This document shows positions 17,149-22,553 of a DNA stretch of 64,000 bases, in pieces. The DNA lies in the NCBI GenBank assembly GCA_040219235.1, contig JAVJSV010000016.1:248001-312000 (forward strand), written 5' to 3'. The notes beneath the pieces were generated by a model. It was not told the DNA's origin. It searched no databases and was given only the letters and a program-made list of their open reading frames with translations. Within the stretch, counting starts at the first letter, position 1. The number at the start of each line of letters is the position of its first letter. The stretch is from Rhodospirillaceae bacterium. GTDB taxonomy: Bacteria; Pseudomonadota; Alphaproteobacteria; Rhodospirillales; Rhodospirillaceae. Made by a program: the position numbers and the translations under genes.

Positions 17149-17176
17149 AATACCCATAATATACATTATGCGACAA
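17149..17176 (-). other. dif: chromosome dimer resolution site dif (left junction, attL)
   Basis: Read on the minus strand, the 28-bp site has the arrangement of bacterial dif. The XerC-binding arm is 17166-17176 and ends CGCATAA, the six-base centre TGTATA is 17160-17165, and the XerD-binding arm is 17149-17159, starting TTATG. The contiguous core GCATAATGTATATTATG is identical to the core of the Escherichia coli site as I know it. The outer positions of both arms differ. It sits where genes on both sides converge. The 29-bp repeat that bounds the inserted element starts exactly at the first base of the centre. Confidence 0.85.
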
Positions 17177-17188
17177 ATGGGTTTCAGA
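17160..17188 (+). repeat. 29-bp direct repeat, left copy (attL side)
   Basis: Identical over 29 bases to 21231-21259. It starts with TATACATTATGCGACAA (dif centre plus XerC arm on the plus strand) and extends 12 bases past the XerC arm. The bases just outside differ between copies (A versus T to the left, T versus A to the right), so the repeat is exact in length. Confidence 0.97.
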
Positions 17189-17201
17189 TGTTCTCAATAC
17201 G

Positions 17202-17232
17202 GGTCACTTCGCCTCTAACCAATTAAGTGACC
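17202..17232. repeat. inverted repeat at left end of element
   Basis: GGTCACTT (17202-17209) pairs with AAGTGACC (17225-17232) across a 15-base loop. It lies between attL and the first gene. It could be an operator for the adjacent HTH protein or part of a replication origin; the sequence does not decide. Confidence 0.6.
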
Positions 17233-17238
17233 TGATAC

Positions 17239-17252
17239 CCAGTTTTAACTGG
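17239..17252. promoter_or_regulatory. short palindrome upstream of HTH gene, possible operator
   Basis: CCAGTT and AACTGG are separated by TT. The palindrome is the second of three inverted repeats packed between attL and the first gene, 27 bases before its ATG. A role as a binding site of the HTH protein is inferred from position only. Confidence 0.4.
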
Positions 17253-17266
17253 TGCGCTCAAACAAA

Positions 17267-17293
17267 AGGACGACCGTCATGAACGGCCGTCCT
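17267..17293 (+). promoter_or_regulatory. hairpin covering the ribosome-binding site and start codon of the first element gene
   Basis: AGGACGACCGT (17267-17277) can pair with ACGGCCGTCCT (17283-17293), 11 positions with one mismatch. The five-base loop CATGA contains the ATG at 17279. The AAGGA ribosome-binding site (17266-17270) is in the 5' arm. In the mRNA this would limit initiation unless opened by a protein or by translation. The pairing is seen; the control is inferred. Confidence 0.65.
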
Positions 17294-17845
17294 CCAAACC
17301 CAGACCAGAACATCTGTCGTGTGACACTCGATCTTCCATGGGAGATCGCAGAAGTACTCGCTGAGCATGGACCACAGCTCATAGCCGTGATCCAGGAAGC
17401 TGTTGGGCAAAGGTCTAAAGAAACTGAGCGCTGTGCACAGGTCGCTGAAAAGGTTTCTGAGACCGCAGAAGCTAACAAAGCCCGTTGGGCCGCCCTCGCC
17501 GATATTTGCCATCGTGAGATCGACAGACGCTCTAACGGTCCAGGTCAGAAAGATTCAATCTTAAAGGCTTTGGCCTCTGAGCTTGGTCACGACTTTCAGT
17601 TCCTGAAATCTGTATGTCGCATTTACGGAACCAAAATTAAGAAAAACCTTAAGGCTGACCGCGATGCATCGGTCATCGAGCTTTACTTCGATGGTCTTTC
17701 AAACAGCCAAATTGCTGAAAAATTGGCAATAGCGCCTGGGTCCGTTTCTCGCATTCTCAGTGGTCAGAAGAAAAAAATAGCGGAAATTAGGGCCCAAAGA
17801 CCGCCTCCAGGCCGATCTGGTCCGGTGAACGGCGGTGTATCGTGA
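17279..17845 (+). CDS. helix-turn-helix DNA-binding protein of the element
   Basis: This 188-residue protein is not assigned to a named family. The N-terminal part (residues about 10-45, CRVTLDLPWEIAEVLAEHG) is followed by a predicted long helix rich in Glu and Ala. A clear helix-turn-helix lies near residues 140-165 (ELYFDGLSNSQIAEKLAIA, then SVSRILSG). The end is basic and proline-rich. Start choice: ATG 17279 with AAGGA eight bases upstream, lying in a hairpin loop; GTG 17252 is less likely. It overlaps the rep start by four bases (GTGA), so both are co-translated. A regulator or replication/integration accessory role is likely from its position. Confidence 0.75.
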   Translation: MNGRPPNPDQNICRVTLDLPWEIAEVLAEHGPQLIAVIQEAVGQRSKETERCAQVAEKVSETAEANKARWAALADICHREIDRRSNGPGQKDSILKALASELGHDFQFLKSVCRIYGTKIKKNLKADRDASVIELYFDGLSNSQIAEKLAIAPGSVSRILSGQKKKIAEIRAQRPPPGRSGPVNGGVS

Positions 17846-18813
17846 AACACCAGGTAAAGCCGGTCCCGGCGAATGAGGGACGCCAAGCCCCTTCCTTGCC
17901 GAGCAATGAAGGTTCTTTTCCGGAAAAACACAGAAAGTGTTCGACTGATCAGTCACCAAGTCGGGGTCGGGAGCGTATCGGCAGGAGCGGAAACGCGCCG
18001 GAGGCGCGTACCGCCCTGCCCGATAGCGACGGCCCCTCTTCTAGACTTGATAAGGGGACGATTTGTGACCTGAGGGATATCAAACCGCAGTATGAAGCAT
18101 TTCGGCTCCTGCTACGTGACTACGGTCAAGGATTAGTAGAAGCCACGATAACCGTAAATACGAGTTCTAGACCCAATACTGATCTAGTCGGTGACCCGCC
18201 AAAGAAAACGCCAGAACAGGTGCAGGAAAATAAAGCCCGCGCTTATCGAAGAGCCAAAACAGCTGTGCGGCAATCAATTATGGCGGCAAAGCTAGATCAC
18301 CTTTTGACACTTACGTATCGGGAAAACCAAACAGACCATGCGTTAGCGTGGAAACACTTTGGACGATTCATGCGCCTTGTCAGAAAGCATCATCCTAAAG
18401 GTTATCCGTTTGTGGCAGTTTTAGAGCGCCAGAAACGAGGTGCAATGCATGTCCATGCAGCAGTCCATGGTCGCCAGAATGTAAAACTTTTGAGGCGTTT
18501 ATGGCATCAAGCCATTGGTACAACGGATGGAAATATTGACGTTAAGTACTTCCGGGGAAAATTATCCACCCTCTCCCGCTATCTGAGTAAATACATCACT
18601 AAAGACTTGGATACTGAGCACACAGAAGGCCAGCACCGTTATAAACGTTCACGCGGAATAGAGGTCCCTGCCCTGATCGTCATGTTACCTTTCAACGTTG
18701 CAGTAGAAGCTGAAATAACTCAGCTTTTTCAAAGCTGCTCAGCCACTGTCGAGTACTTAGATAATCATCTTGATGACGAAGGCCCTAAGTGGCTTTGGGC
18801 TTGTAGTTGGTAA
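17842..18813 (+). CDS. HUH-family rolling-circle replication initiator (Rep), two-tyrosine type
   Basis: This 323-residue protein would nick one strand of the element and remain bound to the 5' end. Motif I is LDHLLTLTYRENQTD (residues about 151-165). The HUH metal motif is RGAMHVHAAVHG with H203 and H205. The catalytic motif is LSRYLSKYITK with tyrosines at 247 and 251, spaced as in the two-tyrosine initiators of phiX174-like phages. It resembles the phage G2P / ORF2-type replication proteins. The first 75 residues are low-complexity and the DNA there holds a 48-nt hairpin, so this part may serve as origin as much as protein. Start is GTG at 17842, overlapping the HTH gene. No relaxase or primase domain is fused. 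Confidence 0.85.
   Translation: MKHQVKPVPANEGRQAPSLPSNEGSFPEKHRKCSTDQSPSRGRERIGRSGNAPEARTALPDSDGPSSRLDKGTICDLRDIKPQYEAFRLLLRDYGQGLVEATITVNTSSRPNTDLVGDPPKKTPEQVQENKARAYRRAKTAVRQSIMAAKLDHLLTLTYRENQTDHALAWKHFGRFMRLVRKHHPKGYPFVAVLERQKRGAMHVHAAVHGRQNVKLLRRLWHQAIGTTDGNIDVKYFRGKLSTLSRYLSKYITKDLDTEHTEGQHRYKRSRGIEVPALIVMLPFNVAVEAEITQLFQSCSATVEYLDNHLDDEGPKWLWACSW
17977..18024. repeat. 48-nt imperfect hairpin inside rep, candidate rolling-circle origin
   Basis: Nested arms pair: ATCGGCAGG with CCTGCCCGAT (one-base bulge), GCGG with CCGC, then ACGCGCC (17993-17999) with GGCGCGT (18003-18009) across a GGA loop. About 20 base pairs form in total. It falls in the low-complexity N-terminal part of rep. Location of an origin within the initiator gene is known for phiX174-type phages. 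No nick site can be named from sequence alone. Confidence 0.55.
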
Positions 18814-18849
18814 TTGAATAACAACATCTATAAAACCCTCAATCCGTTA

Positions 18850-19515
18850 CTAAGTCTGGGTTCCGTATAACTTTTCTTCAATCTTTGCCAACTCTTCAAG
18901 AGTAATATTAGGGTTGTTTTTAGACATGGAGAGAAAGAGTTCGCCATGTCTAAGTATTACGTTAGCGAATGCGCCTTTTGTAAGACCTGAAGAACTTAGA
19001 CCGATATCCTTCCTGATGGCACGAATAAAGTCATCCATAAGATAGAGTGTCCTCGCATCTGGAACGCCTTTTTTCATGTGGTTTGACCAAGCAAAATATG
19101 TTTTTAGTACATTGCTTCCACCCCAAATGATCAACTTTTGCTGCCAATTTCTTAGGAATTTGACAAGTTCTTCATCTGCTACTGTCTCGTCAGTATTATT
19201 TTCCGTGTCAGTAGAATTGGTCGGAGCCATTAACTTGAAGAATTCAGTTAAGAATGCTTCATACATCTCAAGCTTGTCGGCTCTAAAATGTGATTCTATC
19301 TCTTTTTTTCGCTCGTAATATCTACCGAGCATTACTGTCAACGTGGCAGCAAATATAGTTGTAATAGCAGTTAATGCGCCAACAGCAAGTGTTTCATTGG
19401 TACTTGATAGAGCACCCCAGATACCAACTATCGCTTCATACACAAGCCATAGAATTCCGCCCATAATGGCTAGGAATAAAATGCTAGAAAAAAAGACCTT
19501 AGCTTTTTGCCTCAT
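18850..19515 (-). CDS. unknown membrane protein carried by the element, opposite orientation
   Basis: I do not recognise a named family. The 221-residue protein has two hydrophobic segments near residues 8-35 (VFFSSILFLAIMGGILWLVY) and 42-66 (LAVGALTAITTIFAATLTVM). A charged stalk (GRYYERKKEIESHFRADK) and a soluble, mostly helical domain of about 140 residues follow. ATG at 19515 gives a normal membrane start; a TTG at 19551 would add 12 residues. The DNA is more AT-rich than rep and the gene points against all others in the element, as cargo genes often do. A role in immunity to related phages or in host defence is possible but unproved. Confidence 0.7.
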   Translation of the reverse strand: MRQKAKVFFSSILFLAIMGGILWLVYEAIVGIWGALSSTNETLAVGALTAITTIFAATLTVMLGRYYERKKEIESHFRADKLEMYEAFLTEFFKLMAPTNSTDTENNTDETVADEELVKFLRNWQQKLIIWGGSNVLKTYFAWSNHMKKGVPDARTLYLMDDFIRAIRKDIGLSSSGLTKGAFANVILRHGELFLSMSKNNPNITLEELAKIEEKLYGTQT

Positions 19516-19664
19516 AAGTTTCAGATGCCAAATGTAATGAATGATCAGCAAATCTACTTTAGATAGTAATTAACGCATAGCGCTATTATTCATTAATATA
19601 TTTTTTAGTAGACTTTGATAATCTACTAGGTCATGGTATTTCAAATACTACTGATTGGCTGGTT

Positions 19665-20042
19665 ATGACAGAACGACTCACCGATAAAGAACTACACGAT
19701 AAAATACAGAGTTCGATTAAGGACTTTTCCGGTTTCACACCAAGCCTGGAAACCGCTATTGGCGCACTTTTTATCGGAAAGGCCATGGGTTGGGAGGTGC
19801 TCTACCTTATCCATAGCCAAGCCACGATACGCAAATACGAAAAAATTCTTGGCATTAGATACAAAGATCAGATGGACGCGAGCACCGAATTGTCACGCAA
19901 GAGTTATGTGTGGGGATGGACTAAAAAATTTAATGCTTTTTGGAACGTCGTCCGCGGTCAAGAGAAACGAGTGGATAGGACCAGACTCGAAGAAAAACCG
20001 GTCGATGAGTCTGATATTCACGAGGAAGGAAACAAAAAATGA
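19665..20042 (+). CDS. small hypothetical protein of the element
   Basis: I do not recognise this 125-residue protein. It has a mixed N-terminal half with a hydrophobic patch (AIGALFIGKAMGWEVLYLIH), a Lys/Arg/Trp-rich middle (SYVWGWTKKFNAFWNVVRG) and a charged C-terminal tail. No clear signal peptide or membrane segment is seen. The ribosome-binding site is weak. Its stop overlaps the start of the next gene (ATGA), so the two are coupled and probably act together. Confidence 0.65.
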   Translation: MTERLTDKELHDKIQSSIKDFSGFTPSLETAIGALFIGKAMGWEVLYLIHSQATIRKYEKILGIRYKDQMDASTELSRKSYVWGWTKKFNAFWNVVRGQEKRVDRTRLEEKPVDESDIHEEGNKK

Positions 20043-20449
20043 GCATCAGGTACTTCGTGGCTTTTTATAACTGGGATGACCCAGAGGTAAACAACGAACA
20101 TACGCCCGACACTTTTCAAGATGAAGGACCGCAAGAATCTGAGGTTGCTAGAGCTCGTGTTGAAAAAGAGGCATTTAACTTGCTCTCACAGTGCCAAGAA
20201 ATATGGAGCGTTGGTTTGCTCGAATTATTGATTTCACCAAACGGCTATGACGAAGCGGAGGAGACGGGAACGGTTACATCACTTGAAAAACACTATGATT
20301 TTAACGGCGATTTTAAAGAATTAAAAATTCGCTTGAGCAAGGAGATCAACGCATACCTATCTCGTCGATCCCGAACAGAAGAGATGCGGCTAACAATAAG
20401 AGATACAAGATTTCCTAAATATGAAACGGCTCAGATCGAAATGACCTGA
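20039..20449 (+). CDS. small acidic hypothetical protein of the element
   Basis: This 136-residue protein is unknown to me. The first half is acidic (PDTFQDEGPQESEVA), followed by a predicted helix and a mixed alpha/beta second half ending in a basic stretch. It overlaps the gene before it by four bases. Its stop codon lies in the loop-and-arm region of a hairpin at 20426-20454, which may end the transcript. A toxin-antitoxin pair with the upstream gene is conceivable from size and coupling, but no known toxin motif is present. Confidence 0.65.
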   Translation: MSIRYFVAFYNWDDPEVNNEHTPDTFQDEGPQESEVARARVEKEAFNLLSQCQEIWSVGLLELLISPNGYDEAEETGTVTSLEKHYDFNGDFKELKIRLSKEINAYLSRRSRTEEMRLTIRDTRFPKYETAQIEMT

Positions 20450-20454
20450 GCCGT
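20426..20454 (+). terminator. hairpin over the stop codon of the 20039 gene, possible terminator
   Basis: ACGGCTCAG (20426-20434) pairs with CTGAGCCGT (20446-20454), nine base pairs with an 11-base loop. The TGA stop lies at the loop/arm border. There is no long T-run afterwards, so it may be a weak terminator or an RNA-stabilising structure. Confidence 0.5.
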
Positions 20455-20473
20455 CTGCATTTGAGATAACCGT

Positions 20474-20493
20474 AAAGCTGTTGGAGCAGCTTT
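20474..20493 (+). repeat. second hairpin before the last element gene
   Basis: AAAGCTG (20474-20480) pairs with CAGCTTT (20487-20493), loop TTGGAG. It lies between the preceding hairpin and the AGGAGG ribosome-binding site (20505-20510) of the next gene. A control element for that gene or an intrinsic pause site are both possible. Confidence 0.4.
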
Positions 20494-20520
20494 CACCGAG
20501 GCATAGGAGGTGCCATATCG

Positions 20521-21183
20521 ATGACGTCATCTAATGATGGTAATGATAATGACTCAGGTGGACCTGAGCAACTACCGCAAGTCCGTCGAGACAAAACAAA
20601 TCCTGTCCATGATATCCAAGCTTCGATAGCTGGCGAGGAAAGCGTCGATGTGTGGCGTCAAGCCTGTGCTGTATTTCAAGGCAACCCTTCAAGGCAGATA
20701 TTGGTTTTTGGCTTAACTCACTCAGACGGTCTAGAGCCGTTTATGGAAGAGTTCGCTTTTGCGATCGCAAAAAAAGTCGTCGCGATACAGGACAACAAAT
20801 TGCCTTTGCCCCCAGAGCCAAAGAGCTTTGCAGAAGCCTCAGATAACAAACAGATCAACAGGATAAAGAGCCGCAACTTGGTTACAGGATTGTTGTTCGC
20901 TTCCTTTGTTCGTCGTTGGAAAAAAAGCGGTCTTGAAGAGGTGATTGCACTCACCAATCTCGCCCAGCTTTATTCACGCCCAAAATCAGAAATCAAACTG
21001 CTAATCAAATACGCTGCAAGTCTTCGATGGAAGCGCATCGAACAAATGAGGGCGACGCTAGTGCCGAAATGGGAAGCCCAAGGTTGGACAGCCCGGGAGA
21101 TCGGTCGACGGTTAAACGTGACACGGCAATATGCCAAGCGATTGATGAACGAGCTTAAATGGGAAATGGAGGAAGCAAAGTGA
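20521..21183 (+). CDS. helix-turn-helix protein at the right end of the element
   Basis: This 220-residue protein is unassigned. The N-terminal 25 residues are low-complexity (Asp/Asn/Gly/Ser). The middle is mostly helical. The C-terminus carries a helix-turn-helix (WTAREIGRRLNVTRQYAKRL, residues about 190-209). It has the best ribosome-binding site of the element, AGGAGG ten bases before the ATG. It ends 47 bases before the right repeat. Its place beside attR would suit a protein helping Xer recombination or excision, or a repressor; this is inference. Confidence 0.75.
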   Translation: MTSSNDGNDNDSGGPEQLPQVRRDKTNPVHDIQASIAGEESVDVWRQACAVFQGNPSRQILVFGLTHSDGLEPFMEEFAFAIAKKVVAIQDNKLPLPPEPKSFAEASDNKQINRIKSRNLVTGLLFASFVRRWKKSGLEEVIALTNLAQLYSRPKSEIKLLIKYAASLRWKRIEQMRATLVPKWEAQGWTAREIGRRLNVTRQYAKRLMNELKWEMEEAK

Positions 21184-21230
21184 ATACCTACCCTCACCTG
21201 CTTAGTTATGAAACTGAGCGGTCAAGATTT

Positions 21231-21259
21231 TATACATTATGCGACAAATGGGTTTCAGA
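21231..21259 (+). repeat. 29-bp direct repeat, right copy (attR side)
   Basis: Identical to 17160-17188. Here the dif centre (21231-21236) and XerC arm (21237-21247) are intact, but the position of the XerD arm (21220-21230, GGTCAAGATTT on the plus strand) does not match the dif consensus. Such a half-poor site is expected at one junction of an element that supplies only a XerC-competent attachment site. Confidence 0.95.
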
Positions 21260-21290: not shown

Positions 21291-22034
21291 TTAAGAGAAT
21301 ATCAAAAGACCTAAAGCAATCAGGAGGCCAAGGCCGATCTGAACAGCAGCTAAGATCGAGCGTGTGTTCCCCCGGCCAAATCTCTCCCGTAATTGCTGCA
21401 AATGCGCCTTCCTGATTTCCTTAAGGTCAACGACATACTGGGCTTGAGCGATCGCGACAAAGGCCCTCAACCCAGATCGGGCCTGATCAGGATCAAGGGC
21501 CTGGCTTCTGTAATCCTTAAGGGTATCTGCGAGTTCCCTCAGAAAAACGACACCCTCTGGCTTGCCTTTGGGAAATTCAGCCTCCCCAACAAAACAGATC
21601 AATGATTGAATTGATGCTCTGGGAAAAAGGTCCTGGGCAATCCGGATATGCAGTTTGTTCTGCATAATTGGATTCTGAAATTTGAACTTAAAACGACCAA
21701 GTTTCTGGGTCCAACGCCCCTCACCAGCCTGACCAAAAATTGCGCCCGCGTAATTCTTAGTCTCGATTATCACGAGATGACCTGCGATGAGGACAGCATG
21801 GTCGATCTGAGTGAGACGATCATTTTCATCCTGAAGATAGGCATCATCGACACATTCAAACCCGTGGCGCTTAATTACCGACTTAACGAGACGCTCGCCA
21901 AACCACCCTTTAATTTTTGGTTTGAGATATTGAGCAATGCCCGATCCGATGAGCATGAACGGAATAAGCCAGAAGAGGTTTTGAAGCGCGGCAAACAAGG
22001 GCGCAAAAATAGTCACAAAAACCCCACCACACAT
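21291..22034 (-). CDS. NERD domain-containing membrane protein
   Basis: This 247-residue protein has an N-terminal hydrophobic segment (about residues 8-30), a nuclease-related NERD domain and a C-terminal hydrophobic segment (about 225-245). Putative catalytic residues of the PD-(D/E)xK-like fold are visible: E47 in WFGERLV, D78 in TQIDHAVL and the E-x-K pair in IIETKNYAG (91 and 93). ATG 22034 is the longest start; a GTG at 22016 has GGTGGGG just upstream and may be the real one. It is the first chromosomal gene right of the element. NERD proteins are often linked to DNA processing, but the function is unknown. Confidence 0.82.
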   Translation of the reverse strand: MCGGVFVTIFAPLFAALQNLFWLIPFMLIGSGIAQYLKPKIKGWFGERLVKSVIKRHGFECVDDAYLQDENDRLTQIDHAVLIAGHLVIIETKNYAGAIFGQAGEGRWTQKLGRFKFKFQNPIMQNKLHIRIAQDLFPRASIQSLICFVGEAEFPKGKPEGVVFLRELADTLKDYRSQALDPDQARSGLRAFVAIAQAQYVVDLKEIRKAHLQQLRERFGRGNTRSILAAVQIGLGLLIALGLLIFS

Positions 22035-22181
22035 AATTGTATGATGGGGAGAATAAACCTAAAAAGAGGTTCGGCAAGCAAGAGAGCGCGAGGTAAATCT
22101 CGTTGGAGGCATTACCAAGTGCCCTGCTCCATTTGATTTGCTAGTCTCAAAAAACCAGCTTAATCACATTGGAAATTTGCT

Positions 22182-22553
22182 ATGTCCCTCGGTGCTTTCT
22201 CGCTCAGCCTTTCGGTCAAAGATCTCGCTGCGTCGAAAGACTTTTATGCCAAGCTCGGGTTCAGCCCGTTTGGCGGCGATGAAGCCCAAGGCTGGTTGAT
22301 TATGAAATCGGATAGCTGCGTAATCGGTTTATTCCAGGGCATGTTTGAAAAGAACATGCTGACGTTTAATCCGGGCTGGGGCGAAAATGCACAGCCTCTC
22401 GGTAACTTTACCGATGTGCGTGACCTTCAGAAGCAACTTAAAGCCGCTGGAATTGCTTTAGAAACGGAAGCCGATGAAACCACATCAGGCCCGGCCAGTT
22501 TTGTGGTTCATGACCCTGATGGAAACCCAATATTGGTGGATCAGCACGTTTAA
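22182..22553 (+). CDS. VOC family protein (glyoxalase/bleomycin resistance-like)
   Basis: This 123-residue protein has the paired beta-alpha-beta-beta-beta modules of the vicinal oxygen chelate fold. The start is [20 protein letters not shown] and the end [17 protein letters not shown] carries the usual DPDGN.I motif. It stands alone between the NERD and SRAP genes. The substrate is unknown; members include lactoylglutathione lyases, extradiol dioxygenases and antibiotic-binding proteins. Confidence 0.87.

Follow-up and report, generated by a model that had tools for sequence, protein, structure and literature searches.

A 4-kb element at the dif site of a Rhodospirillaceae bacterium is probably a mobile element that exploits host Xer recombination

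A 4-kb element at the chromosomal dif site of a Rhodospirillaceae bacterium is best explained as an integrative mobile element exploiting Xer (IMEX) with the TLCphi/GGI type of attachment site, a reading to which we assign a probability of roughly 0.85. The additional proposal, that a filamentous phage spreads it as a satellite, is held with less assurance, at somewhat better than even odds. The element lies in the window, that is, the whole stretch of 64,000 nucleotides analysed here (contig C16, positions 248001-312000 of a 3.97-Mb genome), and all positions below are those of the window. Insertion at dif, the anatomy of the junctions, the gene content and the relatives are read directly from DNA sequence.

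The left copy of the element's terminal repeat lies within a genuine chromosomal dif. The sequence at this junction, AATACCCATAA-TATACA-TTATGCGACAA, consists of a XerD arm on the left (17149-17159), the central region TATACA (17160-17165) and a XerC arm on the right (17166-17176), and matches the dif of the family, so attL (17149-17176, forward strand) is an intact dif. This identity rests on a family-wide motif, an adjacent gene and GC skew. The motif CATAATATACATTATGCGACAAA was detected with ≤3 mismatches in 63/73 family genomes, nearly always as one copy each, and the reversed motif, used as a control, in 0/73. A gene for an MBL-fold hydrolase (PF12706) lies within ~3 kb of dif in most of these family genomes. 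Across 464 kb of the contig, GC skew is positive before the dif locus and negative after it, with the cumulative maximum at position 21366, ~100 bp beyond the right repeat. The host genome also encodes an FtsK gamma domain and two XerC/XerD-like recombinases, the best match at 328.6 bits, just under the XerD cut-off of 329.6, and the second at 233 bits.

As described in an earlier note on this DNA, the 29-bp direct repeat is perfect, has copies at 17160-17188 and 21231-21259 and starts with the initial base of the dif central region (TATACA). Both copies are on the forward strand, spaced 4071, and they are its only two occurrences in the 3.97-Mb genome with ≤3 mismatches allowed. The same note had judged the left XerD arm good and the right one poor, which a weight matrix built on the family's dif sites (58 others) bears out: the left arm scores 12.4 bits, a value reached by 3e-5 of window positions, and the right arm scores -20 bits, a chance-level value reached by 39% of window positions. 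At the right junction (attR, 21220-21247, forward strand), GGTCAAGATTT precedes TATACA, so that the degenerate XerD arm (21220-21230) is followed by an intact central region (21231-21236), identical to that of the left junction, and by a XerC arm (21237-21247); the XerC arms score 22.6 bits at both junctions. Repeat identity extends 11 bp beyond the XerC arm (17178-17188 and 21249-21259), exceeding what the recombination core needs, and the attP flank of the element may have originated from a dif of the same genus.

Empty dif sites exist in relatives. In 4/6 genus-mates (G066, G067, G069 and G070), dif is empty and a SRAP gene (PF02586) lies ~70 bp from it; in G068 and G071, other genes intervene between dif and the SRAP gene. 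In the window, the interval between attR and the SRAP gene holds NERD-domain and glyoxalase-family genes (21291-22553), which were not found beside the dif of genus-mates. The intervening genes in the window, G068 and G071 indicate that the right side of dif is variable in the genus. The empty dif of G066 continues beyond its XerC arm (AAATGGGCTTTAGCTGTT) similarly to the window repeat. The element itself is more AT-rich than its surroundings, with 45% G+C compared with 51% for the rest of the window.

All ORFs of the element are open. ORF1 (17279-17845, forward strand, 188 aa) and ORF6 (20521-21183, forward strand, 220 aa), the latter adjoining attR, each have a weak C-terminal helix-turn-helix (HTH), with matches below the curated cut-offs. 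ORF2 (17842-18813, forward strand, 323 aa, GTG start) is a Rep, an HUH rolling-circle initiator matching PF23343 (E = 1.6e-14) and phrog_3419 (E = 1.1e-50); its HVH motif lies at residues 203-205 and its tyrosines at Y247/Y251, and H203, H205, Y247 and Y251 are invariant in three relatives. ORF3 (18850-19551, reverse strand, 233 aa) has two predicted transmembrane (TM) helices near its N terminus and a SLATT-like match below cut-off; it is likely cargo and has no relative in the loci compared, in related elements or in plasmids. By locus comparison, ORF4 (19665-20042, forward strand, 125 aa) belongs to a family of no assigned function shared with integrase-bearing elements, and ORF5 (20039-20449, forward strand, 136 aa) has no relative among the loci compared. 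Profile searches detected no integrase, transposase, relaxase or virion gene in the element. The gene list of the earlier note, an HUH initiator, two HTH proteins and three further proteins (ORF3-ORF5) with neither integrase nor transposase, is thus upheld, with the HTH assignments below cut-offs. Against the FtsK gamma domain of the host, ORF6 and ORF1 do not outscore their shuffled versions, and promoter and terminator scans gave no more matches than shuffles. AlphaFold models built from two-sequence alignments were of too low quality to use (mean pLDDT 50 for ORF6 and 54 for ORF4). Given the position at dif, the lack of an integrase of its own and the Xer genes of the host, host Xer is the only plausible recombinase for the element.

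Searches of 317 genomes of the order and 385 of the class placed the element among relatives, and the small sample at dif comprises two intact elements and one remnant. The second intact element, 4294 bp long, lies at the dif of another genus of the family (G045; JAIBCD010000080.1, Rhodospirillaceae bacterium SSF9). Its repeat of 18 bp, TATACATTATGCGACAAA, starts at the same base as the window repeat (the first of TATACA), and its genes are colinear with those of the window at 43% identity for ORF1, 56% for Rep, 45% for ORF4 and 35% for ORF6. The junctions of G045 repeat the same asymmetry: the left is an intact dif with a XerD arm of 8.6 bits, and the right keeps the XerC arm and central region with a XerD arm of -25.1 bits (chance level, 58-site matrix). 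ORF3 and ORF5 have no counterpart in G045, which carries other small proteins instead, two of them with predicted TM helices. The third case, G043, is a decayed copy in which a remnant of ORF1 (30% identical to window ORF1) and a broken Rep remain at 0.1-1.9 kb from dif. Scanning ~60 dif flanks of the family revealed no further element with exact repeats of the XerC half-site at its ends. ORF1 was seen only in these three dif loci among 15 loci compared, and ORF6 in 2/317 genomes of the order, both with dif elements (window and G045). In the genomes and loci compared, ORF1 and ORF6 thus lie only at dif, Rep and ORF4 also occur singly elsewhere, and the same gene set was not seen away from dif. 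Because the G045 element likewise lies at dif in another genus, both elements most likely borrow host Xer enzymes. Integration at dif by host Xer, the central claim of the earlier note, has good support from the family dif, the reversal of GC skew, the empty sites, the XerC/XerD-like and FtsK-gamma genes, and G045.

Xer-using phages differ in their attachment sites. A CTXphi-type attP is folded single-stranded DNA formed from two inverted dif-like sites ~90 bp apart, and in a VGJphi-type attP the XerD side of the central region differs from dif. A CTXphi-type junction was rejected, as no other dif-like site in the window scores near attL or attR and shuffled sequences fold as well as the left end, and a VGJphi-type junction was rejected, as TATACA is identical in both junctions. 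Judged by this anatomy, the window and G045 attachment sites are of the TLCphi/GGI type rather than the CTXphi or VGJphi type, so that the IMEX assignment of the earlier note stands and its CTX-type label does not. In TLCphi, a Vibrio cholerae satellite phage that, like the window element, sits at dif with its own replication module and no virion genes (PMC4246890, PMC5357621), attP combines a XerC site and central region near-identical to dif with a degenerate XerD site, and the reaction is XerD-first and reversible (PMC4246890). Recombination of the TLCphi type is also independent of FtsK. The attP of the window element is similar in keeping the XerC arm and central region beside a degenerate XerD arm. 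The difGGI site of the gonococcal genomic island (GGI) is arranged like TLCphi attP (PMC5357621), and this island shares with the window element a dif-homologous XerC arm and central region, with a degenerate site at one end and an intact dif at the other (PMC5357621, PMC9765430). However, GGI is 57 kb long and carries a type IV secretion system, whereas the window element is 4 kb long with a rolling-circle Rep. The window element differs from TLCphi in its alphaproteobacterial (Rhodospirillaceae-like) host, in having no XafT-like gene by profile and in an otherwise different gene set. XafT is presented in PMC9765430, where Midonet et al. 2019 are cited for it, as a XerD activator carried by TLCphi; no XafT-type domain was found in any element ORF with Pfam and NCBIfam profiles. 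Ebor, one of several single-stranded DNA prophages with XerCD/dif motifs, infects an alphaproteobacterium and has dif motifs flanking its integration site; unlike the window element, it is a microvirus with structural genes and lies in the cbbII operon (PMC11980548).

These features suggest how the element may persist and move. It would exist as a small circle replicated by rolling circle with its own Rep, with an attP between ORF6 and ORF1 made up of a XerC arm, a central region identical to that of dif and a degenerate XerD arm. Host XerC/XerD would recombine this attP with dif, producing an intact dif on the left and, on the right, a hybrid site that lacks a proper XerD arm. The left site should still be able to serve chromosome dimer resolution, and the degenerate right site should keep excision rare unless activated. 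ORF6, ORF1 or both are candidates for activating or controlling the right site, because they are found only in dif elements and flank attP; for an activator role they are candidates by position and by co-occurrence in two or three elements. A helper filamentous phage could then package the circle.

The earlier note had proposed a satellite or plasmid-like element, and the evidence leans towards a satellite because the nearest named kin of Rep are inoviruses and virion genes are absent. The best-scoring named relatives of Rep in phage and plasmid records are inoviruses. Three phage records match: one is an Inoviridae genome that carries coat, attachment and Zot genes, and the others are bajarodino viruses, the one inspected being Inoviridae. 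Inoviridae sp. ctiKU136 (MW202882) has a relative of Rep, 41% identical over 53% of Rep, and the best plasmid match is the inovirus-like pMsip02 (NC_012972), 33% identical over 78%; unlike the window element, both carry coat/capsid and Zot genes and lack ORF1, ORF4 and ORF6. In a tree of 11 Reps, those of the element and its relatives cluster with both inoviruses and with a Comamonas plasmid, and at 81/83 the grouping with inoviruses is only moderately supported. Reps of similar kind also occur in small cryptic plasmids, which is a ground for reading the element as a small rolling-circle plasmid, integrated at dif by host Xer and spread by mobilisation or transformation. That reading, which the lack of a virion gene in the element and of a resident Zot gene would also fit, is possible but on the whole doubtful: the best-scoring named Rep relatives are inoviruses, among 72,556 plasmids none has DNA in common with the element and none codes for a protein like ORF4, a search of plasmids with ORF3 gave no match, and no relaxase gene was identified. 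Phages gave no match to ORF1, ORF4 or ORF6, and IMG/VR scans with Rep, ORF6 and ORF4 gave none either. A scan of genome contigs returned no match with one Rep query and the G045 and G058 records with three. A search for Zot genes returned none from the host genome and a single one from the 73 family genomes (G009), so no helper is at hand. The G009 gene lies on a 5.3-kb contig (G009:C321, L164) that also carries coat, DUF2523 and Rep genes; its ends overlap by 25 bp, suggesting a circle, and it is probably an episomal inovirus in the same bacterial family. A literature search on inovirus satellites yielded no relevant paper.

An inovirus-like Rep at dif, a site that filamentous phages use for integration in other bacteria (PMC4246890, PMC7307601), could also mark what is left of a filamentous prophage, once autonomous and now defective, whose virion genes were lost in the window lineage. 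We regard this as improbable, as every ORF of the element is open and the G045 element of another genus, 35-56% identical, shares the colinear core and likewise lacks virion genes. This points to a gene set that has been maintained and not to a recent loss. The last alternative assigns insertion to the Rep (HUH) nuclease itself, with the dif location explained by its similarity to the nick site of Rep. HUH proteins are able to join DNA ends and the element has no integrase, yet two diverged elements both keep the XerC arm and have repeats that start precisely with the dif central region, and a related Rep in G058 lies between 51-bp repeats at tRNA-Ala, so the integration site does not follow Rep. 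This makes insertion by Rep very improbable, and an IMEX that uses host Xer remains the preferred reading.

Away from dif, five genomes from other genera or families also carry ORF4 (G065, G063, G617, G042 and G316). It accompanies a tyrosine integrase in G065, G063 and G617, adjoining tRNA-Val, tRNA-Ser and tRNA-Lys genes, respectively; in G042 it lies at tRNA-Pro between 42-bp repeats, together with Rep and an integrase that looks truncated, and in G316 with Rep and a serine recombinase. Window ORF4 is 69% identical to that of G065 compared with 45% to that of the G045 dif element, which points to module exchange. We tentatively propose, as a possibility that we consider unlikely as a whole, an ORF4-marked family of alphaproteobacterial filamentous-phage satellites, not described before, that would swap integration modules: a tyrosine integrase at tRNA genes, a serine recombinase, or none together with an ORF1/ORF6 pair controlling host Xer at dif, including a Xer activator unrelated to XafT. 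On the IMEX reading, Xer use of the TLCphi/GGI type would reach an alphaproteobacterial family whose element has a different gene set, and ORF1 and ORF6 would be two defined candidates for Xer control besides FtsK and XafT. Through the relatives that bear ORF4, similar small elements that have an integrase can be compared with those that have none, which makes the step from an own integrase to borrowed host enzymes testable.

The G617 element (L133, 6486-12554) is bounded by 46-bp repeats at tRNA-Lys and carries ORF4, the integrase, Rep and an HTH_17 gene; its cargo is a SIR2-domain gene that matches defence models. The G058 element (L040, 6328-10906) encodes an AlpA-like small protein, and no integrase, ORF1, ORF4 or ORF6 was seen in it; its public record is titled Candidatus Marinimicrobia, yet the genome is placed in the same family as the window. 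In G199 (L048, 10279-14346), a related Rep gene is followed by a gene for a NACHT-domain protein with an N-terminal hydrophobic stretch.
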